Source: Arthrobacter ramosus (GTDB taxonomy: Bacteria > Actinomycetota > Actinomycetes > Actinomycetales > Micrococcaceae). From it: DNA of 64,000 bases. The position numbers and the translations under genes are program-made. Shown in pieces: positions 10,979 through 38,240 of this stretch. The stretch is taken from positions 1,302,001 to 1,366,000 of the forward strand of contig NZ_BAAAWN010000001.1 of assembly GCF_039535095.1 (NCBI RefSeq). The letters are read 5' to 3'. Every line of letters begins with the position of its first letter. Positions within the stretch are counted from its first letter, which is position 1. Under the pieces are notes generated by a model. That model was not told the origin of the DNA. It saw only the letters and a list, made by a program, of their open reading frames with translations, and did not search any database.

Positions 10979-12985
10979 CTATGCGCCAGCGTCGACCCAG
11001 ACCTCGCCTGGCAGGACGCCTATGCGATTTAGCAAGGGCCTTCGGGCACGCTCGCGTTGAATCGCCCTGTTGACGGCGTGGAGAGTCTGAACGAAGTCAT
11101 CGGGGCTGCCTGTCAGAATTCGGCTGCTCAAGAGCGGATGGCCGTTGCCGGATCCTGAGACTTCGCGGATAAGTCTCCGCACAATCGGGGATTCATAGTC
11201 GGCCGCTTCGACTTGAACGGCTTTCAAATGCGGAATCCTCATCGGGATCAGGCTGGAGTAAAGGTCGAGCGCCTTCCCGTACCCTTCCTTTGCTAGTGCG
11301 ACCGGTTCGTGCGCCGCGAACTGCTCCGCACGTTCTTCCTGGGTCTTGGCGGCTTCCATGGGGTGTTGCAACAGCCACTCCTCGTATGTTTTGTTCGCCT
11401 CCTCCAGGAGGCGGGCGCTTTCGGTGAGCCCGGCCAGATAGGCAGCGGCTTCCGGCCGGGCTGCGGCGGCGGCCAGGTTCCTGAGGATTTCGAATACCTG
11501 CCACTTGTCCTGATATGTCTTTTCCCCGATCGAGAGATGTTCAACAAACAACGGCTTGAGTTCCTGGTAGAGCCTGTGGCTGGCCGATGGATCCTCGCAG
11601 ATGTAGGCAGGCTCGAGGACCTGGACAGCGTATTCGTGGTACTTGCCCTGGTGATCCCCTTCGAGGGTGAAGAGCTGTCGGACAGTGTCGTATCGGCCAG
11701 CTGTGAGTGCGGCGATCCCGGTCGCATAGAACAGACGCATCATCACGAGATTGTGCAGGTCGAGAACAACTGTAAGACCACTGGCCCGCGGGGCATCCGA
11801 GAAGTTCTGGATCTCACGAAGCACCCAATGGTCGCTCATCTCGTTCCCCCAGTATGCGGTGGCAGCCATGACCGACATGAGAGCAGCTGATGCTTCTTCG
11901 AGCCGGCTTCGCATGCCGTCATAGGCGCCGTTCGGGGACAAAGCCCCCGTGTAGCTAAGCAACAGGTCATCGTTTTGGTGTAGGCCGTCGGCCTCGCGCT
12001 TGAGAAGGTCATGAAGGGGGATTGCGGTGTACCGGCCCGAGAGCTCCAGCTTCGCCGTCGATACGAGCGTCGCCGCTGTCAGAGGATGCCTGGTTGCGGC
12101 CCTCTCGCGCAGCGCAGCGTACGCGTTGTACAACTCTCCAAGGGCTTGGTCCGCCGACGCCGCTATCCTGGCCGCCCCGATTTGCTCGGAAAGTTCGGCG
12201 CCTTCGTCAGTGAATGTACCGGGTTCGACCCAGTATGGGAGGTAGATCCGCCGGAAGTTCCGTTTGATGGCCGCTCTCAGTTGAGGGTCGTATCTTGCGG
12301 ACCAGCCGACGATCAGGAGGCCGTAGTCCTGCGCGATCCGGTCCAGGAATGCGTCGGCTTCGGGCGTGTATCTGTCCAGCTCAGACTCGGTGTTCCGCAT
12401 CTCCTCAGGGGCAAGATAGTCGCCGTGGAGGTGGACGACGACGGGCTTGCCTGTGTGAAGGGGAGGGAGCCCGGCCAGGTCGTTCTGGCCGCGGATCACG
12501 ACCGGAGTTACGGATTGCTCGCGCAGGGCGGCTTCCATCAGGTTGTCAAAGTTCAAGGTGATGACGACGTTGATGGCTCCTGCTGCCACCAGTCGGGCGA
12601 TGGCGTGATGAGCCGCCGTCGGTTGTTTCTTTCCCTCCTCTTTTTCGTCTGGTGTTGCTTCGAAATAGCCCCGCAAAAGTGACTGCCGGTCGTGCGGCAA
12701 AGGGGCCAGATGCTCAAGAACCCGCTCGTATGTTGGTTCCTGAGCGTATTCGTTTCGGTACCACGCCATCCGCTCATCGTCGGTCGCGCATGTAGCGTCC
12801 TTCACCACGGCCAGCTGCGACAGGAGGTCTTGAAGGACGTCCCAAGCCGAAGGGACCCCACTTCCAATGGAGATGCCGGCGCCGAGCACGACGGCGTAAG
12901 AGCCCGGTGTCGATGTCAGGGAGAACGCCAGACTGAGAAGTTCAGTATCGACAGCCTTCTGATCATTACTTGCCAACGGAGTCAT
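10979..12985 (-). CDS. SIR2-domain protein, probable NAD-consuming defence effector
   Basis: This 668-residue protein has an N-terminal SIR2-like fold: NAD-binding VVLGAGISIGSGVPS (residues 32-46), Asn in TLNFDNL (about 143-149), His in VHLHGDY (about 184-190) and LLIVGWSARYD (about 223-233). These are the NAD-site residues kept in SIR2 NADase effectors. The remaining 350 or more residues are helical, probably repeat-like, and could act as a sensor. SIR2 proteins of this layout kill or arrest infected cells by depleting NAD in several anti-phage systems. It lies immediately downstream of a Gabija pair on the same strand, 390 bases away. I do not recognise a dedicated partner, so it may be a one-gene system. 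No signal or membrane segment is seen. Confidence 0.85.
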   Translation of the reverse strand: MTPLASNDQKAVDTELLSLAFSLTSTPGSYAVVLGAGISIGSGVPSAWDVLQDLLSQLAVVKDATCATDDERMAWYRNEYAQEPTYERVLEHLAPLPHDRQSLLRGYFEATPDEKEEGKKQPTAAHHAIARLVAAGAINVVITLNFDNLMEAALREQSVTPVVIRGQNDLAGLPPLHTGKPVVVHLHGDYLAPEEMRNTESELDRYTPEADAFLDRIAQDYGLLIVGWSARYDPQLRAAIKRNFRRIYLPYWVEPGTFTDEGAELSEQIGAARIAASADQALGELYNAYAALRERAATRHPLTAATLVSTAKLELSGRYTAIPLHDLLKREADGLHQNDDLLLSYTGALSPNGAYDGMRSRLEEASAALMSVMAATAYWGNEMSDHWVLREIQNFSDAPRASGLTVVLDLHNLVMMRLFYATGIAALTAGRYDTVRQLFTLEGDHQGKYHEYAVQVLEPAYICEDPSASHRLYQELKPLFVEHLSIGEKTYQDKWQVFEILRNLAAAAARPEAAAYLAGLTESARLLEEANKTYEEWLLQHPMEAAKTQEERAEQFAAHEPVALAKEGYGKALDLYSSLIPMRIPHLKAVQVEAADYESPIVRRLIREVSGSGNGHPLLSSRILTGSPDDFVQTLHAVNRAIQRERARRPLLNRIGVLPGEVWVDAGA

Positions 12986-13375
12986 GTGCCAGCCCCTATT
13001 GCCCCTGGAAGGCCCGCCGGATGGAAGTAGCTTGATGGCTTGCGGGACCGGGGCCTACTGTACCAAGAAGGCGCGACAGGCAAGAGTACCTGTCGCAGAC
13101 AACCTCGAGCCGCGTATATTGTGAGCGTACAGGCGTGAGGAAGACGAAAGATATGCCCCATGGAAGGCCGAGAGGGCGAACGGCTCCGCGCCGAGCGAAC
13201 TGCCGGGCAAGACGTGAAACGGGAACGGCGACGAGGCGACATAACGAGCGCTTCGTAGTGGCCGGGAGTCACTAAGTGAGGCCAGCCCTAGCCGTGCGAC
13301 CAAGGCCATCCAACTCTGCCACAATCACCCCCGCGACCTGAAGAGCGCAAAACATTAGCTCACCAAATTGCCCGC
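12986..13375. other. Intergenic stretch between SIR2 and gajB
   Basis: These 390 bases show no convincing gene. Short frames on both strands lack ribosome sites and family resemblance. The right side follows the gajB stop without an obvious T-rich hairpin. The left side should hold the SIR2 promoter. Confidence 0.5.
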
Positions 13376-15205
13376 TTATGATTTGCCCATACCCGTCACT
13401 CGCTCCGCGAACGACAGGTATGGCGAAGGAGTCGTGACTCGCTGCCCGTATCGTGTCGTGCGGCGAAGTGCCCGTGTTAGAAGAAGAACCCTCCGTGCCC
13501 GAGTCACGGCAACATAGAAGGTCCGCAATTCGCTGGCTCGCTCACCGTCCGACTTTGCCCGAAAATCGGGGATCTGACCTTCATTCATACCGACGACCGC
13601 GACGGCACGGAACTCTCTCCCCTGAGATTTGTGGACAGTTAGGAGCTGTACTCCTTGCGTAGCCGAACCACGCTGACGACGCGAGCAAAAAAGGCGGAAG
13701 TCCGTCCAGGAACGCGAGTCGCGATCTACGTTGGCGTTGTAGTCCCGCCACGCCTTCTCGATCTCCTCGACGTCAGCGTTCCAGGAGGCGAGTTCGGAGG
13801 TGCTCGCGTCACTATCGCGGACCAACGCGCCCAGACTTTCGATGAACCGGCGCATGTCGGTTTCGTCAACAAGCTCTGCAAGGGCTGCGACGAGGGAATT
13901 GTCATGTGAACGGATCGTCGCCGCTATCTGCTCGCGAGACTTCAACGTCTCCGGGTCTTGATCGATCAGTCGAGCCAGTTGCCATTGAGGCGAAACATGT
14001 CGAGCAGCAGCGTTAAAGGCAATAAGCTCCAGCACTACCTTTCCGGCAAGTCCCTCCAACCAGTCTTCTGCATCACTGCTCGTCGAAAAAGCAATGTCTC
14101 TTTCTTCAAGCGCCTTGGCTATTTCGCGAAGCGCTGAAGCAGAGCGTCCGAGGATAGCGATATCTTCTGCTCGCATTTTGACTGACTCCCCGTCAGCGAC
14201 TGCATCCTTGGGAAGACCAAGTTGAAGGAGACCCTCCACCCAGTCGCTGATCTTCCGCGCTTCATCACTTTCGTCCGCTCCGGAGATAAATTCAATGGAC
14301 CCAGGCGCCGCGTGAGGCTCTGCAGGAGACTGGTCCTGCCCAAGTTCACCTGCGATCAACCTTGCAAGCGAGCTAATAATGGCCGCAGACCTAAAGTTTT
14401 CCGTCAACTCTATGATCTCTGCGTCGTACGAACGCGCGAAACGGTTGATTAAGTCCGGGTCGGCTCCCGCGAAGCTTATTATCGATTGCTTGTCGTCCCC
14501 GACAAGCATCACCGAGGGCCCTTCGCCGGGCGACCCAACCATGGCTGTAAGTAAACAATATTGCGCAGGTGTCAGGTTCTGAGCCTCATCGACTACGACA
14601 TGCGTGTAAGTGCGCACCAGCTGTCGACGAACGGACTTAAGGGCAAGTATTTCAAGGGCCGCATCAAGAAGGGCCGGATAGTCCAAGGCCGGGAGGCTGG
14701 CTAGAGCTCGGCGCCAGTCCTCGACCTCTGCAGTGTCAATCGCACGTGCACGGTTGATGTCGATTTTGCGTAACCGTTCAAGAGGATCTTCGGCGATTCC
14801 CAGCCCCTGGCTGCTCAGCCACTGATTCAGCAGCTCGACTCGATCCTCGTCACGGGTCAGGATTTCTGGTTCGATTGGCAAACCGATTCTGGTCGAGTGC
14901 TGACGAAGCAGTGAGTGAGCGAACCCATGAATCGTCTCGGTCGTAACTCGCTCAGATTCGGCCCCGGCACGCAATCGCAGGCGCTCCCCTAACTCCTCCG
15001 CAGCCTTGTTTGTGTAGGACAGTGCAAGGACGCGCCCAACGCCGTCCCGGGTTGTAAGGAGTCGTTGCACGCGTCGCGCCACAACCTCGGTCTTACCACT
15101 GCCAGCGCCAGCCAACACCACGATTGCCCCAGAGTCAGAGTCAATCGCCTTCTGTTGCAGGAGGCTCAGCGAGACATCGCTGGCCTCGTCTTCAAATCGC
15201 GACAT
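13376..15205 (-). CDS. gajB: Gabija protein GajB, UvrD/PcrA-like helicase
   Basis: This 609-residue superfamily 1 helicase shows Walker A VLAGAGSGKTEVVARR near residue 31, motif Ia LSYTNKAAEELGERL, motif II VVVDEAQNLTPAQY, motif III LVGDDKQSII, and late motifs LTVHKSQGREF (V) and TFYVAVTRARRVLLL (VI). In Gabija, GajB associates with the GajA nuclease complex and is needed for phage defence. The ATG at 15205 lies 14 bases inside the end of gajA, so the two are translationally coupled. The length is somewhat above the classic roughly 500-residue GajB. Confidence 0.9.
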   Translation of the reverse strand: MSRFEDEASDVSLSLLQQKAIDSDSGAIVVLAGAGSGKTEVVARRVQRLLTTRDGVGRVLALSYTNKAAEELGERLRLRAGAESERVTTETIHGFAHSLLRQHSTRIGLPIEPEILTRDEDRVELLNQWLSSQGLGIAEDPLERLRKIDINRARAIDTAEVEDWRRALASLPALDYPALLDAALEILALKSVRRQLVRTYTHVVVDEAQNLTPAQYCLLTAMVGSPGEGPSVMLVGDDKQSIISFAGADPDLINRFARSYDAEIIELTENFRSAAIISSLARLIAGELGQDQSPAEPHAAPGSIEFISGADESDEARKISDWVEGLLQLGLPKDAVADGESVKMRAEDIAILGRSASALREIAKALEERDIAFSTSSDAEDWLEGLAGKVVLELIAFNAAARHVSPQWQLARLIDQDPETLKSREQIAATIRSHDNSLVAALAELVDETDMRRFIESLGALVRDSDASTSELASWNADVEEIEKAWRDYNANVDRDSRSWTDFRLFCSRRQRGSATQGVQLLTVHKSQGREFRAVAVVGMNEGQIPDFRAKSDGERASELRTFYVAVTRARRVLLLTRALRRTTRYGQRVTTPSPYLSFAERVTGMGKS

Positions 15206-16955
15206 CAATTTTCCGGATCAATTCTTGTAGGGGGGTGGGCCATGCATGCCAGTCAGGGTGGCGATCGATAAGAGCGCGAGCCAAAAAAGTGCCCGAACTA
15301 CCCTTGAGCTTCTTCATTTGTTTCATCGTGTCGCCTGTAAGTCCTGGCTGAATGGCTCGACAGGCCGCAAGACACACTTCCTCGTCAAACGTCATAAGCA
15401 TGGTTTCTATTGCGCCAGCCACGGGAGTCCCGGAGTGGTCCATGCCGTTGATCCATATAACTTCGGGTGTGATCGTGGCGTGGGAATTCTGCAGCGTCCG
15501 AACTGCAGCAATCCCATCCTCATCGCTGTCAGCGAAGATAAAGCACGGTGTGTTAGTCATTGCCGAGAACTTCACCGCGGCGGAGGCAAGCTCGTTTGCC
15601 AAACTGCCGGGATCTACGACAGTGATTCCATGGGACTTCCCGCCTAGCGCATGGCGCAGCGCGACCGGCAGGAACGCGCGCTCGGTAGCTCCGTCTCCAA
15701 TGACCACGCAACTCGAAAATAGAAGCTCCCCAAAAGGCCTTTCCACAAGTCTTCGCAATTTCTCCATTTCTTGTTTATGGAGACTTGGTCGAAATGCACG
15801 ATGCACGGCCGTCCCATCGCTCGACGCTGGTCCGAGATCAATAATCCTCGTCGAGTCATTTGCAGTCTGAACCAGTCGGATCGAAGCGGGGTCGACTGAC
15901 GTAACCAGATGAGCCGAGTGGGTGCTCACAATTTTCTGCCCGCGCATACCCACCAAGAGCTCAGCTAGCTCCATTGCGGCCTGTGGGTGAAGGTGCGCCT
16001 CGGGTTCTTCCACGAGGGTAATCGGAGTTGGAGGGACAGCGCTTCCATCACGACCAAGCCGACGTTCGTACAAGACACCTTGCACTTGCAACGAGGACAA
16101 GCTCCGCGACCCCGCGCCATGAAAACGAATCGGAAGCGGCCCCGCACCCGTATCCAAATCAATGGAGATGAGCCGACCTAACTCTTCAAGGCTTGCAGGA
16201 AGGGGATTCAGCGCCGGAGAACCTACACTCCCTACGAGGGAGTGGAGTCTAGATAGTTCGTCGTCAACTGATTTAAGGGTTTGGCTGCCGGCAAGAATTT
16301 GTGCACTCAGCTGACCAAGCTGGGTCTCTAACGGTTCGCGTTGGTGTTCAGGAATTTCGAGATCTGAGAGTACCTTCCGGATACTTGATCCTTGTCTCCC
16401 TAACTCATCACGCAAGTCGCGTCCTGTGTTGATCAGGTCCACCGCGAAGGCCCTCCGTTGTCTAGTCGACAAGATGGTCGGCGATGTCAAGTGGTCCCAT
16501 TTGCTACTGACGGAGTCAAATATCAGAAAGAATGATTCTGCTCGTGCACCACCGCCCTCAGCAGAGCGGGCTATTCTCGTTCGCCAGGCAATTCGTTCGC
16601 GGAGCGGTGTCTCCTGGAGTACTTGCGTCCTATTTTCAAACAACTGTGTGAAATTAGATTCAAACTCTTCGTCATCTTCAGGTCGGGAAGGAGCGCCAGG
16701 TGAAACGATTACATCGATCTCCGGAGTGATATCTTTTCCAACAGAGAAGTCGTCAACCTCGGCGGGACGCCCGCCAAGCGCAACTTGCAAAGCAGAGATG
16801 ATTCTTGATTTTCCTGCGTTATTTCGCCCAGCCAGCACAGTGACGCGCGGCTCCAACTCGATCTCACAGAACTTAATCCCCCGAAAGTTCCGAATAATTA
16901 GCCGTTCGATGTAGGGGCCAGTTTGGCGCATATCGTCCGAGGGCACACCTGACAT
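15192..16955 (-). CDS. gajA: Gabija protein GajA, OLD-family ATPase with TOPRIM nuclease domain
   Basis: This protein of about 587 residues has an N-terminal ABC-type ATPase domain (IRNFRGIKFCEIELEP, then Walker A LAGRNNAGKSRII), a late Walker B/D-loop region ITLVEEPEAHLHPQA with STHSAHLV, and a C-terminal TOPRIM domain (CVVIGDGATERAFLPVAL and FIFADSDEDGIAAV with the DxD). This is the OLD-family GajA, a nucleotide-inhibited DNA-nicking enzyme of Gabija. I prefer the ATG at 16955 because GAGGG lies 9 bases before it. An ATG at 16964 is also in frame. It leads the gajA-gajB operon. Its base composition is more AT-rich than the flanking housekeeping genes, in line with transfer. Confidence 0.9.
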   Translation of the reverse strand: MSGVPSDDMRQTGPYIERLIIRNFRGIKFCEIELEPRVTVLAGRNNAGKSRIISALQVALGGRPAEVDDFSVGKDITPEIDVIVSPGAPSRPEDDEEFESNFTQLFENRTQVLQETPLRERIAWRTRIARSAEGGGARAESFFLIFDSVSSKWDHLTSPTILSTRQRRAFAVDLINTGRDLRDELGRQGSSIRKVLSDLEIPEHQREPLETQLGQLSAQILAGSQTLKSVDDELSRLHSLVGSVGSPALNPLPASLEELGRLISIDLDTGAGPLPIRFHGAGSRSLSSLQVQGVLYERRLGRDGSAVPPTPITLVEEPEAHLHPQAAMELAELLVGMRGQKIVSTHSAHLVTSVDPASIRLVQTANDSTRIIDLGPASSDGTAVHRAFRPSLHKQEMEKLRRLVERPFGELLFSSCVVIGDGATERAFLPVALRHALGGKSHGITVVDPGSLANELASAAVKFSAMTNTPCFIFADSDEDGIAAVRTLQNSHATITPEVIWINGMDHSGTPVAGAIETMLMTFDEEVCLAACRAIQPGLTGDTMKQMKKLKGSSGTFLARALIDRHPDWHAWPTPLQELIRKIDVAI

Positions 16956-17157
16956 CGCGTTCATCCCTCAAACATAGCTGCGAGTCGAGGGCACAAGTGC
17001 TTCCCGCGCCGGAACACTGACGCTATACCCTCTACTTCTCTTGCCTTTCACCCGTCGGGCAACCGGGAACTTCCTGTCGCGCGACTCGGCATGGTAGTGG
17101 AGATGCCGGTGAGCCGGTGGGGCGGGTGGTTCGGTAGCTGTCCGGCGCCGAGTCTGA

Positions 17158-18429: not shown

Positions 18430-18638
18430 TCAGGGGAATACGCCTTGTCGAATGATCCGAAGTCGTCCGGGGAATGGGACCACCATCCGCAGGATCGTCC
18501 GTGGCCGTGCCCCTGGAAGGAATGTCTCGAACCCCTGAAGCCGCGGCAGCGAGTATCGGGAGTCATCGGGATGAACATCCGGCCCACTATCGCATGGTTA
18601 TTCCGGCCGCCGGCGGTATCGACGACAGCGTCTTCCAT
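18430..18638 (-). pseudogene. Frameshifted short reading frame upstream of the previous gene
   Basis: An ATG at 18638 opens MEDAVVDTAGGRNNHAIVGR. Within about 35 codons the coding-like signal moves to another frame that ends RLQGFETFLPGARPRTIL ... RIIRQGVFP at 18430, just before the ribosome site of the next frameshifted gene. The span is not a multiple of three, as expected for one indel. The combined product would be about 70 residues. The two broken frames lie in tandem, suggesting a decaying small operon. Confidence 0.3.
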
Positions 18639-18733
18639 GGCCACTAGCCTAGACCCTGATCGCCGCTCAACGAGTTGCTGCTGGCGTCCCGCGATCCGGC
18701 TTGTCCCACCGAACGCCATCGCAGCTGACAGGT

Positions 18734-18762
18734 CAATTGTGCAAAGGCGCTTTGCACAATTG
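18734..18762. promoter_or_regulatory. 29-bp perfect dyad upstream of the DUF3841 gene
   Basis: CAATTGTGCAAAG (18734-18746) and CTTTGCACAATTG (18750-18762) are perfect 13-base inverted arms around GCG. The A+T-rich arms stand out against their surroundings. The site ends 36 bases before the probable GTG of the DUF3841 gene and is not followed by a T-run, so an operator bound by a dimeric regulator is the best reading. Confidence 0.6.
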
Positions 18763-18798
18763 GCGACCTCTCTCGGTGTTTTCAGCGATGATATTGGT

Positions 18799-19461
18799 GT
18801 GTCGAGTTTTCCAATCAGCGAAGCCTGCCCTGCGGATGCCGTCCCGCCGGGGCGGATTGGCTACGACATTTCCGCCGACCAACTGCTTCTCCACACCCTT
18901 CAGAGCGAGGAAGCTTTCGATGCGCTCTGTTCGGCAGGTGTGCTCGTGTCTGATCCTTCCCGTATCGATCCTTTTCTTGTCGACGCCTACGACTGGCTCT
19001 ACCGGCAGATGGCAGCACGACTCACCACGGCCGGGGACGGGGCGATCTGGCTCTGGGCCCAGATCACCCGCCGTGATCTTGTGGACAGTTGCGGGCACTC
19101 CATCGGGCAGGTTCTGCTGACCTGCAAGGTGCCGCGGGAACGTGTGCTGCTGTCCCACTACGGCGACTGGCATTCGGTCCTGAACAAGTTCCCGCATATC
19201 CCCGAGCTCCGCGGCGAAAGCGATGAAGACAACACCGCATGCATGAATCGCAGGTACGACGATTTCGTGGCACGACTCAAGGCCGCAGGAGCCTGGGGTG
19301 CGGGAATCGCGGCCTGGCCGACGGATTTGAGGGCCGACGTCGAGCAGGGATGGGAAAGCATCTTTGACCCCGGGAACTACGGTCGTTTCGAGTCCTGGCA
19401 GGCCACAATGCACACACTGCGCGCGGAAGACATCGTGAAAGCCGTCAGAATCCGGCGCTGA
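18799..19461 (+). CDS. DUF3841-type protein
   Basis: This protein of about 220 residues resembles the DUF3841 family: an opening segment LLLHTLQSEEAFDALCSAGV, then DAYDWLYRQMAARL and IWLWAQITRRDL, the family's W-A-W-like core. The function is unknown. Similar proteins are scattered in bacteria and firmicutes as single genes. The start is uncertain. GTG at 18799 places it after the 29-bp dyad; TTG at 18760 lies inside the dyad; a longer frame back to 18445 crosses broken minus-strand genes. It is divergent from those frameshifted genes. Confidence 0.6.
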   Translation: MSSFPISEACPADAVPPGRIGYDISADQLLLHTLQSEEAFDALCSAGVLVSDPSRIDPFLVDAYDWLYRQMAARLTTAGDGAIWLWAQITRRDLVDSCGHSIGQVLLTCKVPRERVLLSHYGDWHSVLNKFPHIPELRGESDEDNTACMNRRYDDFVARLKAAGAWGAGIAAWPTDLRADVEQGWESIFDPGNYGRFESWQATMHTLRAEDIVKAVRIRR

Positions 19462-23011: not shown

Positions 23012-24286
23012 TTGGATGAACGCCTCGAGTCGATGTATATTGTCACGGAATTCTTGGATCGTTACGGCAAAGAAATCGACTACTATGACCAGGTAGCTCG
23101 CATAGTCGCACGCAGACTCGAAGCGGCCCTCTCGGGCGCCGGTCTGCGTGCCATAGTGACCAGCCGCTCAAAGGACCTCTCGCGACTGCAGGACAAACTT
23201 AAACAGCGCAACGCCCGGAATCCTTACACTTCCGTCGCCGGTGTATATGCCGACATCGCTGACCTAGCTGGCGTGCGGGTGGCTCTCTACTTTCCGGGCG
23301 AGCGCGATCAAGTCGGGAAACTCATTACGCGACTCTTCGACGAATACGACTCGAAGCGCGAATTCCCTCTAGACGTCAACCATTCGGAAAACAGAAAGTT
23401 CTCTGGCTACTCCGCAGTGCACTATAGAGTACGGCTTAGATCTGGCGACCTTGAGGAGTCGGAACAGCGATACTCTGACGCCAATGTTGAGATCCAAGTT
23501 GCGTCAGTGCTCATGCACGCGTGGTCGGAGGTTGAGCATGACCTCGTCTACAAGCCCGAGGGAGCTATTTCGCCGCAGGAACACTCGTTGCTTGATCAGC
23601 TCAACGGACTGGTTCTCGCAGGGGAGATCAGCCTGGAGCAACTGCAAAAAGCAGGAGAGGCGCGGGTCGCGCAGGAAGGCCGCGCTTTTCAAAATCACTA
23701 CGACCTCGCTGCCCATCTTTTGAGTAAAGCGTCTTCATTGAATCTCGACGAGATCGACGATTCTGGGATGGGTCGAGTTGACGTCCTGTATTCCCTGCTG
23801 AGCGAATTAGGAAAGAATACACCCGAAGATTTGAAGCCCTATCTAAGGGAGATACACGGCCACCTTGAAAAACGACCTTTAGCCGAACAAATCATCGACG
23901 CCGTCCTTATTGAGGACCAAAGCCTCTACGAGAAATACCAGCGGATCCGCGAGAGAATCGTAGGAAAACCCACTGCGGCTGGTGACTCCGGCGAGGTCCA
24001 CAGGGAGATTGGCGCATTCCTGAGCGCCTGGGTCGAGTTGGAACGATTGCTCAGAGAGGTGACTCTAAAGGAGGAACGGGTCGGCGCAGGACTCTTCGAT
24101 CCTAAATGGTTCAGGAATAAAGGGGACAGTGGTCGAAAGACTTTGTTTGAACTTATGGAGTTAAGGAAGTTCAGGAATCGACTCGTACACGGGATCGATG
24201 CACCGTCAGAGGAGCAACTTCATGCTTCGACTGAAGGCGTGAGAGCGATCATCGACGAACTCGAAAAACCAGAGAACTCCGTCTAG
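23012..24286 (+). CDS. RelA/SpoT-type nucleotide pyrophosphokinase fused to a HEPN-like domain
   Basis: This 424-residue protein has an N-terminal RelA/SpoT synthetase-like domain: VTSRSKDLSRLQDKLKQR (49-66), IADLAGVRVALYF (82-94), SGYSAVHYRV (131-140) and EIQVASVLMHAWSEVEHDLV (160-179). It lacks the HD hydrolase and the TGS/ACT regulatory parts. The C-terminal 110 residues are helical and end in LRKFRNRLVHG, whose RNRLVH (388-393) matches the HEPN RNase motif R-x4-H. The fusion recalls toxic small alarmone synthetases used in phage defence, with a second potential RNA-cleaving domain. The TTG start follows AGAAGG; an in-frame TAA lies just upstream. A coding-like 22-codon tail ending at 22997 lies just before it, perhaps from a lost upstream gene. 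Confidence 0.8.
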   Translation: MDERLESMYIVTEFLDRYGKEIDYYDQVARIVARRLEAALSGAGLRAIVTSRSKDLSRLQDKLKQRNARNPYTSVAGVYADIADLAGVRVALYFPGERDQVGKLITRLFDEYDSKREFPLDVNHSENRKFSGYSAVHYRVRLRSGDLEESEQRYSDANVEIQVASVLMHAWSEVEHDLVYKPEGAISPQEHSLLDQLNGLVLAGEISLEQLQKAGEARVAQEGRAFQNHYDLAAHLLSKASSLNLDEIDDSGMGRVDVLYSLLSELGKNTPEDLKPYLREIHGHLEKRPLAEQIIDAVLIEDQSLYEKYQRIRERIVGKPTAAGDSGEVHREIGAFLSAWVELERLLREVTLKEERVGAGLFDPKWFRNKGDSGRKTLFELMELRKFRNRLVHGIDAPSEEQLHASTEGVRAIIDELEKPENSV

Positions 24287-24416
24287 TTGCGGTACGAAGC
24301 TGATGCGGCCACTCTAGTCTCACGATGACCACTTCGTACCCAGGCCGGTTACAGTCAACCTTGGGGGCCCGAAATCAGTGAAACCGCCAGAGTCGCCGAC
24401 CAATTTCTGGGTCCAT

Positions 24417-29658: not shown

Positions 29659-31116
29659 TCAAGCGTGGTCTTCGGGTTCGACCGTTGCCGCGTTTCGAAG
29701 GTCTGACAGTTGTTCCATGGATTCATATTGGCCCTGGATTAATGCCAGCCTGAAACCATCAGCGCCGACTTTCATTTTTATGGTGCGATCGTCAAAGCCG
29801 ATGGCTTTGAGCCAATGAGCTTCGAACAACATGGTGCAGATGAGGGTTGCGACGCGGGTCGCTCGAATGTCGGTTGTCAGGACGACTGACTCTTCGAGGC
29901 CGTGAGCCACGATGTTTCTTACCCGGGCAACATGTTTGGGCCAGTCGGTCTTGTTTATGAGGCTAGAAACAGGGTTTCCAACGCCTTGGTCAAGTCGTCT
30001 CAAGCGATCTTCCAGCGTGGGATTTCCCCGGTCGTTTAAGAACTTCCTTAGGTCGCGCCGGAGTCTGGAATTTCCTATGCCTGCGTCCTTCAACGCTTCG
30101 CTCACCTGCACGGCGATTGGCGTCTGTTCAGGTGCGGCCGCGTCCGGGTGTAGAACTCGGTCTAAGGACTCGACCATCTGGGCGGCCGTTGTGCACCGAA
30201 CGAGGTCCCCGGCGGCCCTGTGGCTGACCAGGCTAAGGTACTGATCCATCGGAAACTGGAGGCGTGGGACGGCATCAAATACTTTGGGAATCTGGACGGC
30301 GAAATCGAAATCATTTAGCGAATGCTTTGTCAGGACTCGCTGATCGGAGCTGGCAGCGCGCGGCGCGAACGAAGTCCTCATCGTGACCCACGAACTTGTG
30401 GGATCTTCGTGATCACCTTCGGTCTCCCATTGAGTGTTGGTCAGCCTAATGAAGGACAATCCAGAAAGTTGTCCGGTGGCGGAGACGACTAGGATTTCAA
30501 GTGGTTTTAGCCAATCGGTGAGTAGTCTTTCGATGGATATCGGTTCTGGGAAGTCCAACTCGAAGCGACTTGTGCTCTGAAGGGAAACGGCGACACCGGG
30601 GGTCGTCTCGGACGCAGACGTACAGACGAGGCGAATGGCCACTCCATTGTGCTCGGCTTCCAGAATCTGGTCGGGTTGGAGAACGATTGAGGTGACGTGA
30701 CCGTTGAGATCTCGATCGACCGTATGGCCTCTCCAACCCGTCCAGGAGTCTTGGTCCCAAAACTGGACTCGCACATTCGTGAAGTTCAGTTCGTCTTCGG
30801 AGAGCCACAATCCTTCGAACGTGTACTTCGGGTGGATGCGGCAGTCCATCAGCTCGTTCATGCTGAAAGAACCGGAGCGGTACCTGTTGCCGACGGCAGT
30901 GGTAGCTGTCCCAAAGACGTCACCGTGCAAAAGTTTGAACTCGCTGCTTGAGGCCTCGAAGTCAGCAGGGTGAAACGCGTCCCAAGAACTATGAAGCCGC
31001 AGTTCAGGCTGTCCGTTACTCAAGATCTCATAGGCGCCGTGAACAGGATGAATGCGTTCTGTATCCGAACTGCGAAACCACCTCGACGGGCGAACTGATG
31101 TTGGCGAAGTCGTCAT
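29659..31116 (-). CDS. apeA: ApeA-like HEPN anti-phage protein
   Basis: This protein of about 485 residues resembles ApeA. An N-terminal beta-rich domain (for example ELRLHSSWDAF and LLHGDVFGTATTAVG) is followed by a C-terminal helical HEPN domain with VARVRNIVAHG, where RNIVAH (about 400-405) is the R-x4-H RNase motif. ApeA proteins are single-gene anti-phage systems thought to cut RNA on infection. I chose the ATG at 31116, preceded by GGAAGAAAAG; ATG at 31128 and 31164 are in frame. It lies 75 bases after a 680-residue membrane protein on the same strand, which suggests a two-gene unit. Confidence 0.72.
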   Translation of the reverse strand: MTTSPTSVRPSRWFRSSDTERIHPVHGAYEILSNGQPELRLHSSWDAFHPADFEASSSEFKLLHGDVFGTATTAVGNRYRSGSFSMNELMDCRIHPKYTFEGLWLSEDELNFTNVRVQFWDQDSWTGWRGHTVDRDLNGHVTSIVLQPDQILEAEHNGVAIRLVCTSASETTPGVAVSLQSTSRFELDFPEPISIERLLTDWLKPLEILVVSATGQLSGLSFIRLTNTQWETEGDHEDPTSSWVTMRTSFAPRAASSDQRVLTKHSLNDFDFAVQIPKVFDAVPRLQFPMDQYLSLVSHRAAGDLVRCTTAAQMVESLDRVLHPDAAAPEQTPIAVQVSEALKDAGIGNSRLRRDLRKFLNDRGNPTLEDRLRRLDQGVGNPVSSLINKTDWPKHVARVRNIVAHGLEESVVLTTDIRATRVATLICTMLFEAHWLKAIGFDDRTIKMKVGADGFRLALIQGQYESMEQLSDLRNAATVEPEDHA

Positions 31117-31191
31117 CTTTTCTTCCATTGAGTTGGGTGAGTCGCTGAAACGAGTGAGAGGCAAAGGCGCCCCGCATTGCCCTTCGTGGGG

Positions 31192-33234
31192 TTAAGGCTC
31201 AGTAGTTACGTTGGATGGCGTCGGTAGCCCGGCTGGATCGGGGACCGGCGCGGACGGCAGATCGCTTGCAGTTTCGGGAGCATGATCCGGCTCAAATTGA
31301 ATGGGAGTAGGCCAGGCAAAGCCGCGCCTCATACTTGGAAGTGTCCGCGGGCGATGGCGCCACATCCATCCCGCAAACGATAGCAGCACAACAACGCCTG
31401 AGATCAGTCCCATCACGGCCCAAGGACCCCAGAACCCGAGGGCCGCAGCTTGCCGCAAGGGTGTGACGAGCCATTCGCCACCCATCCCCGGAGAAAGTGT
31501 TTTTACTGATTCGAGAAGCTGCCCGAGAGTAGGAATCCCCACTATGACAGCAACCACGGTTGCGGCGAGGGTTATCCACCACGAACGCCTTGCTGCCTTG
31601 GCGTCGCTGAGGGTCGAATGGGCCATACCAGCTAGGTCGAGTGCGGTCTCGATAGTTGGCCGGATTTGGTCCGCTCCGAGCTCCTGCAGAAGGTCTTTGA
31701 CAATCATTCGGGATTCGCCCGCACGAACATTTCCTTGTCGGAGTTCCGAGAACAGAAGAATTGCGTCTTTGTAGCGCTGCCGGAGCTTTCGTTCGCCGAG
31801 GGACATTCGAGCGACTTGCTCTTCCATTGCCTCCAGGCGTTTGTACAGAAGCAGCGCATACTCGATGACGAGGACCGTGTTGAGCTCCGAAATACCAAGG
31901 GGCGGCTCTCCTTCCCACTGGAAGTAAGCCGCTGACCCCAGACCAGTGAAGAGTGAATGGTCTGCTCGAAGCGAGTAATCTTGCGGATCTTTCACGTGGG
32001 CGGCGATTTGGGCGGGACTCGCCCTCAGCGCGATGCGGAGAACGTCTTCGCGATGCCGCGTGCGCCATTGGGCCGGTTCGCAGCATACGTCGGGCTTAAT
32101 GATCGCCAGCGGGTACAGAATCCAGCTGGAGCACCCCTGTCTCAGAGCGCCCATGACGGCGTAGAGGTTTGCGAAAACGGCCTCGTGCAGGGACACCGGA
32201 TGCGGGTGGTCGATACGTGCGCGACGAGCCCCAGCGTCCAGTTCATCGGCCCACTCCGTGACTCTGTCTTCCCATCCGCTTCCGACCAGGAGGGGTTCCG
32301 CGACCTCGGAGCGCACAATGCGCGGGGCATGGCCGCTCATGAGGTCGAGTACTTGGTCAGTTGTGAGTGGACCTTCGGTTCGGAGAGCGACGCTTAGCTG
32401 AACGGCTCCGCTTTCGTGGAGGAGCAGGCGCGGTTCGAAGACGACCTCCTGCTCAGCTTCCACCCCGGGGACCTTGAATTCGTGGTAGCTCTCCCGGAGC
32501 GCGACCCTGACGAATCGGTCCTCATTGTGGCTTCGGCCCCCGAAGAGGGTGGAATCGATAGCACGCTCGGCTGCGGAGACGAGTTGCTGGCCCAAAATCA
32601 GTTCCTCGGCTTCGTCGAGGGTCTTTTCAAGGCTGTAATCTTCGTTGTCTGACTCTGGATCTGAGGGAAGTGATTCCAAATCGGAGTCGTCTGGACGTGG
32701 AGCATCCGGGGTCGCGTCACCACCACTTTTGCTTTTGCGCACAAAACGGATGTTCGGGAGAACTTTCCAAATACCGAATATCGGGTGCTTGAGAATGAAG
32801 AACAGCAGGGGCAACAGTGTCTTTTTCGAAGACAGTTTTTCCAAGTCGGCAACCACTCGCGGGTACCATAGAGCCCGGAGATGAAGCAGGCCCAGTTTTG
32901 GGTGCCGCCAGGCAAATGAGAGACCGGCATCCCAGGTCGCCATCTTCGCTGCGTGCTGATAATCACGATTCATCGCTCGAGCGCGAAGCAAGCGGCCAGC
33001 CACTGGCCGCAGACGGTTGGGAACGCGGATTGCCGTCTCGGAAGGCCAAGCTGCAGCCAAGCCCAAGTCAGCGGCCAGCAGCTTCCTTGATGCCCTCACG
33101 ATGTCCATTCTCCGTGATAGCTGCGTTGTCAGCGTAAAGTGCACCGTGGCCGAGGCGAAATGCGCGTCGTGCTGAATCGGCTTTTTGTTTCTTGTCCGGT
33201 TCCATCTCTGGGTTCGCGTGGTTCCTGGCAGCAT
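31192..33234 (-). CDS. Unknown protein with two C-terminal membrane helices, paired with the ApeA-like gene
   Basis: This protein has up to 680 residues and I do not recognise its family. The first 180 residues are basic and helical. An acidic patch (about 195-225) follows, then a mixed region rich in Arg and Glu (about 225-540). Two transmembrane helices (roughly 550-572 with WWITLAATVVAVIVGIPTLG and 600-625 with AVMGLISGVVVLLSFAGWMW) and a Pro-rich cytoplasmic tail close it. The first 42 residues look doubtful; ATG at 33108 (MDIVRASRKL) is a likely alternative. Its position just upstream of an ApeA-like HEPN gene suggests a membrane sensor or effector in the same defence unit. Confidence 0.7.
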   Translation of the reverse strand: MLPGTTRTQRWNRTRNKKPIQHDAHFASATVHFTLTTQLSRRMDIVRASRKLLAADLGLAAAWPSETAIRVPNRLRPVAGRLLRARAMNRDYQHAAKMATWDAGLSFAWRHPKLGLLHLRALWYPRVVADLEKLSSKKTLLPLLFFILKHPIFGIWKVLPNIRFVRKSKSGGDATPDAPRPDDSDLESLPSDPESDNEDYSLEKTLDEAEELILGQQLVSAAERAIDSTLFGGRSHNEDRFVRVALRESYHEFKVPGVEAEQEVVFEPRLLLHESGAVQLSVALRTEGPLTTDQVLDLMSGHAPRIVRSEVAEPLLVGSGWEDRVTEWADELDAGARRARIDHPHPVSLHEAVFANLYAVMGALRQGCSSWILYPLAIIKPDVCCEPAQWRTRHREDVLRIALRASPAQIAAHVKDPQDYSLRADHSLFTGLGSAAYFQWEGEPPLGISELNTVLVIEYALLLYKRLEAMEEQVARMSLGERKLRQRYKDAILLFSELRQGNVRAGESRMIVKDLLQELGADQIRPTIETALDLAGMAHSTLSDAKAARRSWWITLAATVVAVIVGIPTLGQLLESVKTLSPGMGGEWLVTPLRQAAALGFWGPWAVMGLISGVVVLLSFAGWMWRHRPRTLPSMRRGFAWPTPIQFEPDHAPETASDLPSAPVPDPAGLPTPSNVTTEP

Positions 33235-34472: not shown

Positions 34473-34990
34473 CTGACGAAATGTGGGCTGCTTGGAACTG
34501 GCCTGCCGATCATGTCAGGCTACCCTCGGACAAGAGGACTGTGGCCTTGAGCTTGTGGCGCAGAGACGGGAACATCTGCCAGGTCTGCGGGTTGAAAGTC
34601 GACATTATCCTCCGCAACCGGCAACCGGCGATGGCAAGCGTGGACCACATTATGCCCCTGCGTCGCTACGCGCCGAAGTACGAAACCGATCGTCTGAACG
34701 TCTGGGGCAATGTCCGGCTGTTCCATCTTTGCTGCAACACCGCCCACGCCGACTTCGATGCAGAGTGGATTGCCGTCGCCGACGACCGGAAGATGCTGCG
34801 GTTGGCAGTTGAGCAATTCGAAACTACCGGCTCCTGGCTGCCTCCGAAGACCGGGTTCCTGCAGCTTGAAGCGCCGCTTGTGACCCCGGCTTGGCAAGAA
34901 GAAGCAACCAACGGGCGGCCAACCGGTTCCTTTGGTGAGGAGTGGACTACGCCGGAGTCGTCCGCAGGTCCGGGTGACCGGACAAAATAG
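34448..34990 (+). CDS. HNH endonuclease domain protein
   Basis: This protein of up to 180 residues has a zinc-coordinated HNH fold: CQVCG (about 41-45), the catalytic ASVDHIMPLRRY (about 60-71) and LFHLCCNTAH (about 92-101), which supplies the second Cys pair and the final His. Such proteins are nicking or double-strand endonucleases. ATG at 34448 and 34469 are both possible. The last 44 bases overlap the 3-prime end of the convergent dnaE2 gene. Its place after SRAP suggests a repair or defence role. Confidence 0.8.
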   Translation: MLVPNEQMTDEMWAAWNWPADHVRLPSDKRTVALSLWRRDGNICQVCGLKVDIILRNRQPAMASVDHIMPLRRYAPKYETDRLNVWGNVRLFHLCCNTAHADFDAEWIAVADDRKMLRLAVEQFETTGSWLPPKTGFLQLEAPLVTPAWQEEATNGRPTGSFGEEWTTPESSAGPGDRTK

Positions 34991-37900
34991 CCAGATCGTT
35001 CCAGGGCTCTGCCGAAGCCGGCCTCGGGAGGCTGAGGGTGCTGAGGTCCCAGGCGTTGCTGGCTTGGAGGGACATTCCGCGTGGGCCGGTGCGGCGGGTG
35101 GTTCCTTCGATGAGTAGCAGGTTCGTGGAGAAGAGGATCGGCGGGTCGACCTTTTCCTGGGCGTCGCTGAAGAAGGTGGCGTCGACGCAGCCGGTGCCGT
35201 CGTCGATGCTGATGAAGACGACGCGTTTGCCGCCGCGCATGGGCGGTGTCTGGGTGGCGACCCGGATTCCCGCGACGAGGACCTTGGAGCCGTTGCGCAG
35301 GTCCAGGAGGTCTTTGGCTTTGGTGACGCCGAGCCGGTCCAGGAGCGACTGGTAGGAGTCGACCAGGTGGTGGGTGACGTCCAGGGCCAGGATGTCCAGT
35401 TCTTCCCTGGTGATCTCCAGATCGGTCAGTTCGGGCATGGTGGCCTGGATGGTTGGTGCGTCGATGGCCGGGAGCGGGAGGGCGAGCTGGCCGGGGATGA
35501 CCTGTAGCCGTTTGGCGGTGCGGGTGGCCTGGTTTCGGGCGGCGATCGCCGGGCGCGTCCGTTTGCTCTGCCCGGTGTAGAGGGTGTCGAGGGCGCCGAC
35601 GAGGGCGAGGCTTTGGACGGTGGAGGCGCGGAGCCGTGCGCGTTCCTTCAAATCAGTCATGGAGTCGAAGGGCCCCTCGGTGACGATCCGGTGGATCTCC
35701 CTGGCCTGGATGCCTTTCACGTCGGCCAGGGACATGCGGATCCCCAGCCGCCCGTCCGGCGTCGGCTCGGTGACGTATTCGTCGGTCGAGCGGTTGACGT
35801 CCAGGGGCAGGATGGGGATGCCGAGGCGCCGGGCTTCGGCGACGAGCAGGCGTTTGGGGTACATGCCGGGGTCGTGGGTCCAGAGTCCGGCCATGAACTG
35901 GACGGGGTAGTGGGTTTTCAGCCAGGCCGACTGGAAGGTGGGTTTGGCGAAGGCGGCGCCGTGGGCGCGGCAGAACCCGAAGGACCCGAAACCTTTGACG
36001 ACGCCCCAGACCTTGTCGATCACCTCGGGCGTGTAGCCGCGCTCGAGGGCTTTCTCGTGGAAGAACTTTTCGACGCCGGGGAGGCGGTCCTCGTCGGACA
36101 GGAAGCGCCGGAGCACGTCGGCGTAGGCGAGCCCGCAGCCGGTGAACGTGTCGATGATCCGCATGAGCTGTTCGTGGAAGACCACGATCCCGTAGGTGTT
36201 CCGCAGGAAGGGTTCCAGGTCGGGGTGGAGCTGCTCGACGGTTTCCCAGCCGCCGCGCCGGTTCAGGAACGGTTTGACCATGTCGGCCTGCATCGGGCCG
36301 GGGCGGAAGAGGCTGATGTCGGTGATCAGGTCATCGAACACGGCCGGCTGGAGCTTGCCGACGAGTTCGCGCTGGCCCGGGGACTCGATCTGGAAACACC
36401 CCAGCGTGTGGGTGGAACGGATCAATTCGAAGGTCGGCTCATCATCCAGCGGCACCGCTTCAAGGTCGACGCTCTCGCCGGTGGTGCGTTTGATTTCGGC
36501 GACGGCGTAGGCCATGGCCGACTGCATCCTGACCCCGAGGACGTCGAGCTTGATCATGCCCATCGGGTCCATGTCGTGCTTGTCGTACTGGGACATCGGC
36601 AAACCCATCCCGGACGGCTGCACCGGGGTTCGGTCCAGGAGCGAGGTGTCGGAGAGGATCACCCCGCAGGGGTGCATGGAGATGTGCCGGGGCAGCCGGT
36701 CGAGCCTTTCGGTGATGTCCACCAGCAGGTCCAGCTGCCGGCTGCCTTCCACCCGTTCGGCAAGGTCCCTCAGTTCGGGTTTCTCCGCCATGGCTTCCCG
36801 GAAGTGGGAGGCGGAGAAGCGCCAGAGGTTCTTGGCGATCCCGTCAATGTCCTCCGGGTCCATGCCCAGGACCATGCCGGCGTCCCTTGCCGCGCCGCGG
36901 GCCCGGTAGCCGGACTGCATCGACATGAGCGTGACCCGTTCCGGGCCGAAGCGGGCGAAGATCTCGTGGTAGATGTCGTGCCGTCTCGCTGATTCGACGT
37001 CGATGTCCACGTCCGGGAGGGTCCGGCGCTCGGCGCTCAGGAACCGTTCGAAGAGCAGGTCGTGCCGGATCGGATCCACGAACGAAATGCCCAGCGCGTA
37101 GTTGACGAGGGACCCGGCACCGGATCCGCGGGCCGCGGAGCGGATGCCCATGTCCCGGATGAGCCGGGCGACCTCGGCCACGGTCAGGAAATAGGACGCG
37201 AACCCCAGATCGGCGATGGTGTCCATCTCCAGCCGCAACCGCGACTCCACGACCTCTAGTCCAGCGTGGCCGGAGCCGGTGTAGAGGGTGTTGACCCCTT
37301 CCCGGGCGCGTTCCCACAGCACCGCGAGTGGGTCGCCGGTGATGCCGATGATGGAGGCTTCGGGCATGACCGGCACCCCCCAGCCGGCATCGCTGACCGG
37401 GTCGATCCGGCACCGGTCCGCCAGGGCCTCGGTCTCGGAGAGGAGGGTTTTCGCGGCCGCGGCGCCGGCCTGCCCGACCGCGGCGATCTCCGCGGCAAGG
37501 GCGCTCATCATCGATCCGGGTTTGAGCCAGGCCTGGGCCGTTGGCTGGACCCCGGTCTCATCCAGGCGCCGCAACGCCCGGGCGGCATCCAGAATGTCGG
37601 CCGTGATCGCCCCATCCGGCAACACGTAACGGACCGCGTTCGTCAGTACCGCCTTCACCTGGGCCCTGCCGGCGAGGCGGAGCATCCTGGTCGCGTGGGT
37701 ATGGCTGAACGGCAGCCCGGGTGCGGACAGATGGGAGACGACCTCGACTCGGAGTGCCTCCGTGGGCAGGTGTCCGAGCCATTGCTCGATCAAGGCCATT
37801 CCGTCACCGCGGGACCCGACCTTGAGCCCGACGTCGGAGAGCGGCCCGAGCATCACCGTCCCCACAGGCTTGGCATCGGTGAGAAGGTGCGCGGCGATTT

Positions 37901-38240
37901 CCGCCCGGGTCACCGCGACGGTCTTGCGGGCGTGGGCGGCGGAGACCAGCCGGCACAGGGCCCCGTACCCGGCGCCCTGGTTGTGGCCGTGGGCCAGGAC
38001 AACGACCCGCCCGCCCACGCTTCCGTCAGCGTCCAGGACGGCGAGCTCCACGCCCAGGATCGGATCGATCCCGGCCGCGACACACGCGCCGATGTGTTTA
38101 GGGATCCCGTAGAGCCCGTCCCGGTCCGTCACTGCCAGGGCGTCTGCTCCGCCGGCCTTCGCCGCGGCCGCCAGGGTGTCCGGCCAGTCCACCCCATAAT
38201 GGGCGGAAAAGGCCGACGCAACGTGCAAATGGGTAAACAT
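34947..38240 (-). CDS. dnaE2: Error-prone DNA polymerase III alpha subunit, DnaE2/ImuC
   Basis: This 1097-residue C-family polymerase starts with a PHP domain (FTHLHVASAFSAHYGVDWPD), has the catalytic aspartates in LPDVDIDVESARRHDIYHEI (about 420-440), the fingers segment FRPGPMQADMVKPFLNRRGG, a helix-hairpin-helix region and a C-terminal OB fold (VLVAGIRVATQTPPMRGG). The length and divergent PHP fit DnaE2 rather than the replicative DnaE1. In actinobacteria DnaE2 does mutagenic lesion bypass with ImuA and ImuB, usually under LexA. Here DUF6504 precedes it by 9 bases, but imuA and imuB are absent locally. Confidence 0.95.
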   Translation of the reverse strand: MFTHLHVASAFSAHYGVDWPDTLAAAAKAGGADALAVTDRDGLYGIPKHIGACVAAGIDPILGVELAVLDADGSVGGRVVVLAHGHNQGAGYGALCRLVSAAHARKTVAVTRAEIAAHLLTDAKPVGTVMLGPLSDVGLKVGSRGDGMALIEQWLGHLPTEALRVEVVSHLSAPGLPFSHTHATRMLRLAGRAQVKAVLTNAVRYVLPDGAITADILDAARALRRLDETGVQPTAQAWLKPGSMMSALAAEIAAVGQAGAAAAKTLLSETEALADRCRIDPVSDAGWGVPVMPEASIIGITGDPLAVLWERAREGVNTLYTGSGHAGLEVVESRLRLEMDTIADLGFASYFLTVAEVARLIRDMGIRSAARGSGAGSLVNYALGISFVDPIRHDLLFERFLSAERRTLPDVDIDVESARRHDIYHEIFARFGPERVTLMSMQSGYRARGAARDAGMVLGMDPEDIDGIAKNLWRFSASHFREAMAEKPELRDLAERVEGSRQLDLLVDITERLDRLPRHISMHPCGVILSDTSLLDRTPVQPSGMGLPMSQYDKHDMDPMGMIKLDVLGVRMQSAMAYAVAEIKRTTGESVDLEAVPLDDEPTFELIRSTHTLGCFQIESPGQRELVGKLQPAVFDDLITDISLFRPGPMQADMVKPFLNRRGGWETVEQLHPDLEPFLRNTYGIVVFHEQLMRIIDTFTGCGLAYADVLRRFLSDEDRLPGVEKFFHEKALERGYTPEVIDKVWGVVKGFGSFGFCRAHGAAFAKPTFQSAWLKTHYPVQFMAGLWTHDPGMYPKRLLVAEARRLGIPILPLDVNRSTDEYVTEPTPDGRLGIRMSLADVKGIQAREIHRIVTEGPFDSMTDLKERARLRASTVQSLALVGALDTLYTGQSKRTRPAIAARNQATRTAKRLQVIPGQLALPLPAIDAPTIQATMPELTDLEITREELDILALDVTHHLVDSYQSLLDRLGVTKAKDLLDLRNGSKVLVAGIRVATQTPPMRGGKRVVFISIDDGTGCVDATFFSDAQEKVDPPILFSTNLLLIEGTTRRTGPRGMSLQASNAWDLSTLSLPRPASAEPWNDLAILSGHPDLRTTPA

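Follow-up and report, generated by a model that had tools for sequence, protein, structure and literature searches.

The locus raises the question of what a single protein could achieve by carrying both a RelA/SpoT-type alarmone synthetase and a HEPN RNase motif. The window, i.e. the whole 64,000-nucleotide stretch of Arthrobacter ramosus DNA that was analysed, contains one such gene (Table 1), and a first-pass annotation had suggested that its product may make a toxic nucleotide and cut RNA, or that one domain may control the other as in CapRel-type fusions. This reading is supported by the analysis presented here. As far as can be judged from sequence, the protein consists of three domains, both catalytic sites are conserved, and there is no general partner gene. 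Two toxic activities in wide use, pyrophosphorylation of the synthetase type and RNA cleavage by HEPN, appear to be combined in a single conserved protein.

Table 1. Coordinates of the synthetase-HEPN gene, its domains and motifs, and surrounding genes in the window.
Feature	Position	Strand	Remarks
Whole gene	23012..24286	+	424 aa from TTG; 417 aa with ATG 23033; stand-alone, convergent gene downstream
Synthetase (SYNTH/SAS-like) domain, residues about 8-218	23033..23665	+	
R52-x-K54, first strand	23165..23173	+	R52 aligned to CapRel R79 (ATP donor site)
D84-L-A-G-V-R89	23261..23278	+	R89 aligned to CapRel R116 (ATP donor site)
G-loop G132-Y133-S-A-V-H137	23405..23422	+	Y133 is the counterpart of CapRel Y155
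E160-I-Q162-V-A164-S165	23489..23506	+	usual ExQxR Arg replaced by Ala
Middle all-helical domain, residues about 222-320	23675..23971	+	conserved; helices from predicted structure
Y306-E-K-Y309 (YxxY), end of middle domain	23927..23938	+	
HEPN domain, residues about 326-418	23987..24265	+	Pfam scans, predicted structure
HEPN RNase motif R388-N389-R-L-V-H393	24173..24190	+	read in sequence
SIR2-domain protein and adjacent Gabija GajB/GajA pair	10979-16964	-	SIR2 protein matches PDC-S65, E 1e-135
DUF3841 protein in island	18445-19461	+	
NTPase, 1487 aa	24417-28880	-	STAND-like; weak C-terminal HEAT match; PDC-M54A match residues 253-553
ApeA homologue	29659-31164	-	ApeA_NTD1 and HEPN_Apea; second HEPN protein, 5.4 kb off
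680-aa ORF adjoining ApeA	31192-33234	-	no Pfam/PADLOC match at E <= 0.01
DNA polymerase III alpha-like protein	34947-38240	-	

In the protein search, 2523 of the 7994 proteins scored reached E <= 1e-3; the alignments of the 120 that were listed span 91-100% of the query. The source names among these 120 are GTP pyrophosphokinase, ppGpp synthetase, RelA/SpoT domain protein, and in a few cases hypothetical protein. Only one listed relative (P0020) has a JGI name to which YutE/DUF86, a HepT-like family, is added. Because the names otherwise cover the synthetase only, the RNase half has mostly been overlooked. From 209 relatives matched in the genome collection 80 loci were kept, which stand under record titles of eight phyla. 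An open reading frame was found in 78 of them (the relatives in the following), while L020 and L067 had no matching frame and were viewed as lists of open reading frames only. Genes were called by an in-house ORF picker in these loci, many of which are short.

The synthetase domain is matched by RelA_SpoT (PF04607) at residues 51-183 with 52.7 bits (cut-off 27), the family is found at E <= 1 in all 75 members of alignment A2 including the window's protein, and an SAS fold is predicted for this part. The alarmone-synthetase motifs claimed earlier for the N-terminal domain are indeed kept, with R52, R89, and Y133 aligned to the CapRel residues whose roles are described in the accessible text of PMC9712102. 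R52 and K54 are present in all 77 relatives with letters at those columns, and D84, R89, Y133, H137, E160, and Q162 each in 78 of 78. The Arg of ExQxR is present in the aligned SAS and CapRel rows, but residue 164 is Ala in 77 of the 78 relatives and Gly in one. With this near-invariant Ala the substrate of the synthetase becomes a testable question. Small alarmone synthetases generally consist of one domain, an exception being actRel/DUF429 (Atkinson 2011, PMC3153485, accessible portion). Compared to RelQ/SAS1 and RelP/SAS2, the protein has two extra domains in addition to the Ala substitution, and the NCBIfam equivalog for RelQ/YjbM-type GTP diphosphokinases is matched with 33.9 bits, below its cut-off of 320. 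The PADLOC candidate PDC-S33 gives a weak match (residues 28-172, 34.6 bits), which is confined to the synthetase part and stops short of the middle and HEPN domains.

A HEPN-like part had been proposed for residues 190-424. This holds for the C-terminal end, where the HEPN domain is located, but not for residues 222-320 or so, which form a separate conserved domain. The R-x4-H motif noticed at the C-terminus is real. R388, N389, and H393 do not vary in A2 (75 of 75 rows) and are, together with F336 and W340, the only fully identical positions within residues 326-418. The orthologs retain it as well, with R388 found in 78, N389 in 75, and H393 in 77 of the 78 relatives. Moreover, R[NDH]...H occurs within the last 130 residues of all 121 listed proteins, and the window's own protein accounts for two of these. 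A chance origin of the motif is excluded by this conservation.

Concerning the fold, 57 C-terminal pieces (56 of the 77 in set A3 and the window's own) were compared to Pfam at E <= 1. HEPN_RiboL-PSP was matched by 24, HepT-like by 23, DUF4145 and HEPN_Cthe2314 by 16 each, and HepT-like_2 by 12 pieces. These five most-matched families are all HEPN (best E 7.1e-5) if DUF4145 is counted as such according to the available text of PMC3710099. Rarer matches were DUF6548 (nine pieces, best E 0.018), which is not known as HEPN, HEPN_Swt1 (four), HEPN_Apea (two), and the Csm6 HEPN (two). The A3 pieces were picked by the motif R[NDSR]...H, with L066 omitted, so that their invariant R and H are partly due to selection; the counts from A2 and the 78 loci were not picked in this way. 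Among the 75 full-length members, unselected for the motif, HepT-like was matched in 26 and DUF4145 in ten, and the non-HEPN family SPEF2_D5 in nine (best E 3.9e-4). The window's own C-terminal piece matched no HEPN family in Pfam, and the profile similarity to HEPN thus appears to hold for the family as a group and not for this piece alone. The C-terminus is predicted as a helical bundle (pLDDT 87). Foldseek with the HEPN piece gave no match at E <= 0.001 in the PDB and a viral library, and the VIA structure search returned mixed helical bundles; because structure matches are absent or mixed, they are taken neither to prove nor to refute a HEPN fold. Compared to PDB sequences, the C-terminal profile matched best the repeat protein 7rdr (E 0.0073), which has no single stretch over the threshold and was rejected as an artefact. 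The matches further down, which include the HEPN toxin 7ae9 (E 0.024), a BLOC-1-related protein (0.052), Ec2ApeA (0.074), and, in the range of E about 0.5-1.2, HepN toxins alongside EthR and a cysteine desulfurase, are weak and mixed. The RNase activity of the domain is putative. The protein resembles ApeA and further single-gene Abi proteins with HEPN in being a stand-alone defence-type protein that has this domain at its C-terminus. It differs from ApeA in the N-terminal part, and the two HEPN domains are only distantly alike: hhalign of the C-terminal profile with the window's ApeA aligned 16 columns at RN-x3-H only, with a probability of 1.8, which leaves close kinship without support.

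The middle of the protein is conserved better than the HEPN domain, with a mean pairwise identity in A2 of 58% for residues 186-320 compared to 36%. Beyond residue 188 the predicted structure contains helices only, and the structure search was largely confined to residues 5-215. No Pfam family was matched at E <= 1 by more than two of 31 middle-domain pieces. The PDB profile matches 4rv1 and 4hxt are engineered or de novo proteins without a single stretch over the threshold and were discarded as artefacts; the remaining PDB matches are weak. Pfam and PDB sequence searches gave no convincing match of the middle domain to a known family, and none to a known nucleotide-binding family. At its end the domain carries a YxxY motif, which is exact in 64 of the 75 A2 rows and 64 of the 78 loci, and present as a pair of aromatic residues or His in 72 of 75 and 74 of 78. 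In related proteins the ATP site is blocked by a YXXY motif sitting between the two arginines, as concluded from prediction and mutation for CapRel and from structure for ATfaRel2 (PMC9712102 and PMC11782079, in their accessible parts). Like CapRel, a fused toxSAS toxin-antitoxin and tRNA pyrophosphokinase that is activated by a phage protein, the protein is encoded by a single gene, has a putative C-terminal control part and the equivalents of R79, R116, and Y155, and shares HAW after the ExQ motif as well as the conserved YxxY. In contrast, CapRel has a pseudo-zinc finger where a helical middle domain is predicted here, and Y306-x-x-Y309 falls in a predicted helix. The resemblance is thus suggestive only. 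The motif may even be incidental because the helical domain is unlike the pseudo-zinc finger and a second YxxY is found at residue 22 in 46 of the 75 rows.

We tentatively favour, at somewhat short of an even chance, that the protein is a self-contained abortive-infection or growth-arrest enzyme in which a HEPN effector RNase is coupled to an active synthetase. At rest it would be silent, with the middle domain holding the synthetase shut, perhaps via Y306-x-x-Y309 as in CapRel, and preventing an active site from arising between paired HEPN domains. The protein would be opened by a trigger, probably one derived from a phage. The HEPN dimer would then cleave RNA, most likely tRNA or another RNA of translation, and the synthetase, now open, would consume ATP to transfer pyrophosphate to a nucleotide or to the 3' terminus of a tRNA. 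Through this double blow to translation the phage cycle would not be completed. The RNase and pyrophosphokinase activities, the autoinhibition, the trigger, and the targets are all parts that we infer, and we know of no activity, toxicity, or phage protection for any member of the family. A bolder version, a one-protein immune device with a new domain that couples a HEPN RNase mechanistically to an enzyme pyrophosphorylating nucleotides or tRNA, the RNase being gated in cis by the product of the synthetase or both activities striking the same RNA one after the other, is conceivable but rather doubtful. If the protein is active, a dual-effector or messenger-gated class would be added to anti-phage defence, and a one-gene system would be at hand to study the mutual control of alarmone enzymes and RNases.

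It could also be that the pyrophosphorylated nucleotide is a switch and not a poison: made by the synthetase, it would bind the middle domain and activate the HEPN RNase in cis. Both sites are intact, a well conserved middle domain is expected if it binds a ligand or couples the other two, and the Csm6 HEPN, which is among the families matched by the C-terminal pieces (two of 57), belongs to a protein that is switched on by cyclic oligoadenylate. However, the middle domain does not fall into a known nucleotide-binding family in the searches described above, and we are not aware of any other HEPN domain gated by an alarmone. We consider such a messenger unlikely.

That the gene is a stand-alone gene among defence genes, as proposed at first, agrees with the genomic context. 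It has no operon partner, a Nudix/NrtR gene lies 221 bp upstream, and the STAND-like large NTPase is convergent downstream. The SIR2 protein, Gabija, the PDC-M54A NTPase, and ApeA are all found within about 12 kb. The ORF next to ApeA is possibly an undescribed defence gene, and the DNA polymerase III alpha-like protein is presumably of the DnaE2/ImuC type. The third-position GC of the synthetase-HEPN gene is 0.60 compared to 0.80 and 0.84 for two upstream ORFs and 0.73 for the downstream gene, which fits acquisition; it is likewise low (0.54-0.62) in the Gabija and ApeA genes. Across loci, no neighbour family within 600 bp recurs in more than 11 of the 78, and these 11 are all Lachnospiraceae; an ABC-ATPase family occurs anywhere in 18 loci and within 600 bp in six. 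Because no neighbour gene is widespread, a separate antitoxin seems unneeded, and a general two-gene toxin-antitoxin pair is contradicted by the counts. The neighbours of six relatives matched 140 PADLOC families and controls from the same genomes 17 (93 proteins each), counted as model families and not as genes, the generic mad3 and mad8 matching three proteins in both sets. The six loci were hand-picked from the 80 for diversity, the gene itself and genes of more than 1400 aa were omitted, and the controls are 93 of 98 genes from six of nine stretches. Among the 25 shown of the 140 models are type I restriction, RmrA/T, PD-Lambda-5 A/B, and AriA, and the neighbour set also includes phage integrases. 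A phage-borne gene was considered and rejected, as none of the three matching phage records covers 80% of the query (none of one with P0118 as query). Among the plasmid records one of 20 does.

Instead of defence, the protein might serve as a resident stress-response factor, tying RNA cleavage to the nutrient or nucleotide status as part of the cell's own growth control. This would suit the ordinary, stable chromosomal neighbours in three clusters better than a travelling defence gene. In Lachnospiraceae an HhH-GPD repair gene adjoins in 11 of the 12 loci that hold one, in five loci of gut Bacillota type an AI-2E-type transporter is adjacent and YgjP is also found in such neighbourhoods, and in three Streptomyces loci the neighbours are a glutamine synthetase and a MerR regulator. 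In addition, a quick tree, which came with long-branch warnings, mostly follows the phyla, with ten changes of phylum label compared to a minimum of seven. The window's gene groups there with Actinomycetota rows (support 98), so that transfer between phyla is not demonstrated for it. The presence of the gene is, however, sporadic. Only one of 99 near relatives of the A. ramosus genome is positive at E <= 1e-20, namely the own genome, with 0 of 60 congeners, and six of 396 genomes of the phylum have any match at E <= 1e-12. Three of these matches, among them that of the own genome, extend over most of the protein, one of them in two pieces. Together with the defence island and the defence-rich neighbours of the six sampled relatives this argues against a resident factor, which we regard as quite improbable.

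Could the HEPN fold be merely a dimerisation or RNA-binding domain, and the protein a toxSAS with an unusual tail in which the synthetase is the sole toxin? The HEPN domain is the fastest-evolving part, as is often the case for sensing and binding parts, and one relative, L066 (2864-4192), has its HEPN His replaced by Tyr, with the synthetase residues intact. For the 25 closest of 54 pairs, which share rows and are thus non-independent, dN/dS is 0.00-0.14 in the synthetase, 0.00-0.15 in the middle domain, and mostly higher, 0.05-0.32, in the HEPN domain. All three domains are under purifying selection, and the HEPN domain drifts fastest with its motif fixed. Since dN/dS is well below one throughout, both enzymes appear to be retained for use. 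The near-complete retention of R and H despite the fast change is as expected of a catalytic site and makes a mere tail hardly probable, and L066 offers a natural test case for a synthetase-only function. P0122, L088, and L089 share only the synthetase part and have different tails. L028 (1706-3391) has about 120 added residues past the HEPN domain and matches only RelA_SpoT in Pfam. L083 (5983-7068), a synthetase relative on a Rhizobium plasmid, has no R-x4-6-H in its tail by eye, and among the few genes upstream one is annotated as CxC ATPase DNA modification system small protein.

HepT/MntA likewise pairs an R-x4-H HEPN RNase motif with a Pol-beta-type transferase, although in two polypeptides, and here the synthetase replaces the MNT. 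No MNT gene is adjacent in the window, the neighbours being the Nudix/NrtR gene and the large NTPase. That the synthetase acts as an antitoxin which modifies the HEPN domain and keeps it off, as could be imagined because RelA/SpoT and MNT enzymes both belong to the Pol-beta superfamily (PMC5512222, accessible text), is very improbable given that the Tyr modified by MntA in RX4HXY (PMC7641770, accessible text) is absent, with Tyr at H+2 in only one of 120 proteins, the window's own being in the set.

The first-pass annotation knew of no described system with this pairing, and none was found in the accessible text of open-licence PubMed Central papers, although a mention in Jimmy 2020 or Burroughs 2015/2020 is possible. 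The available text of the HEPN survey PMC3710099 does not contain SpoT or alarmone, and that of the RSH survey PMC3153485 does not contain HEPN. RelS-RelI was dismissed as a precedent since, according to the accessible part of PMC13284704, it involves a RelE/ParE RNase.

The gene start can be placed in two ways. The TTG is preceded by the Shine-Dalgarno-like AGAAGG, and the longest ORF starts upstream of the residue-8 column in 45 of the 78 relatives. Residue 8 itself, encoded by ATG 23033, is M, L, or V, all possible start codons, in 70 of 78, and this ATG may be the true start. The opposite-strand frame that was read is interrupted by stops. A promoter and terminator scan gave no signal above chance. 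It missed a 9-bp inverted repeat, GGTACGAAG / CTTCGTACC, which was read by eye at 24291-24299 and 24332-24340 between the two convergent genes and could possibly be their shared terminator.
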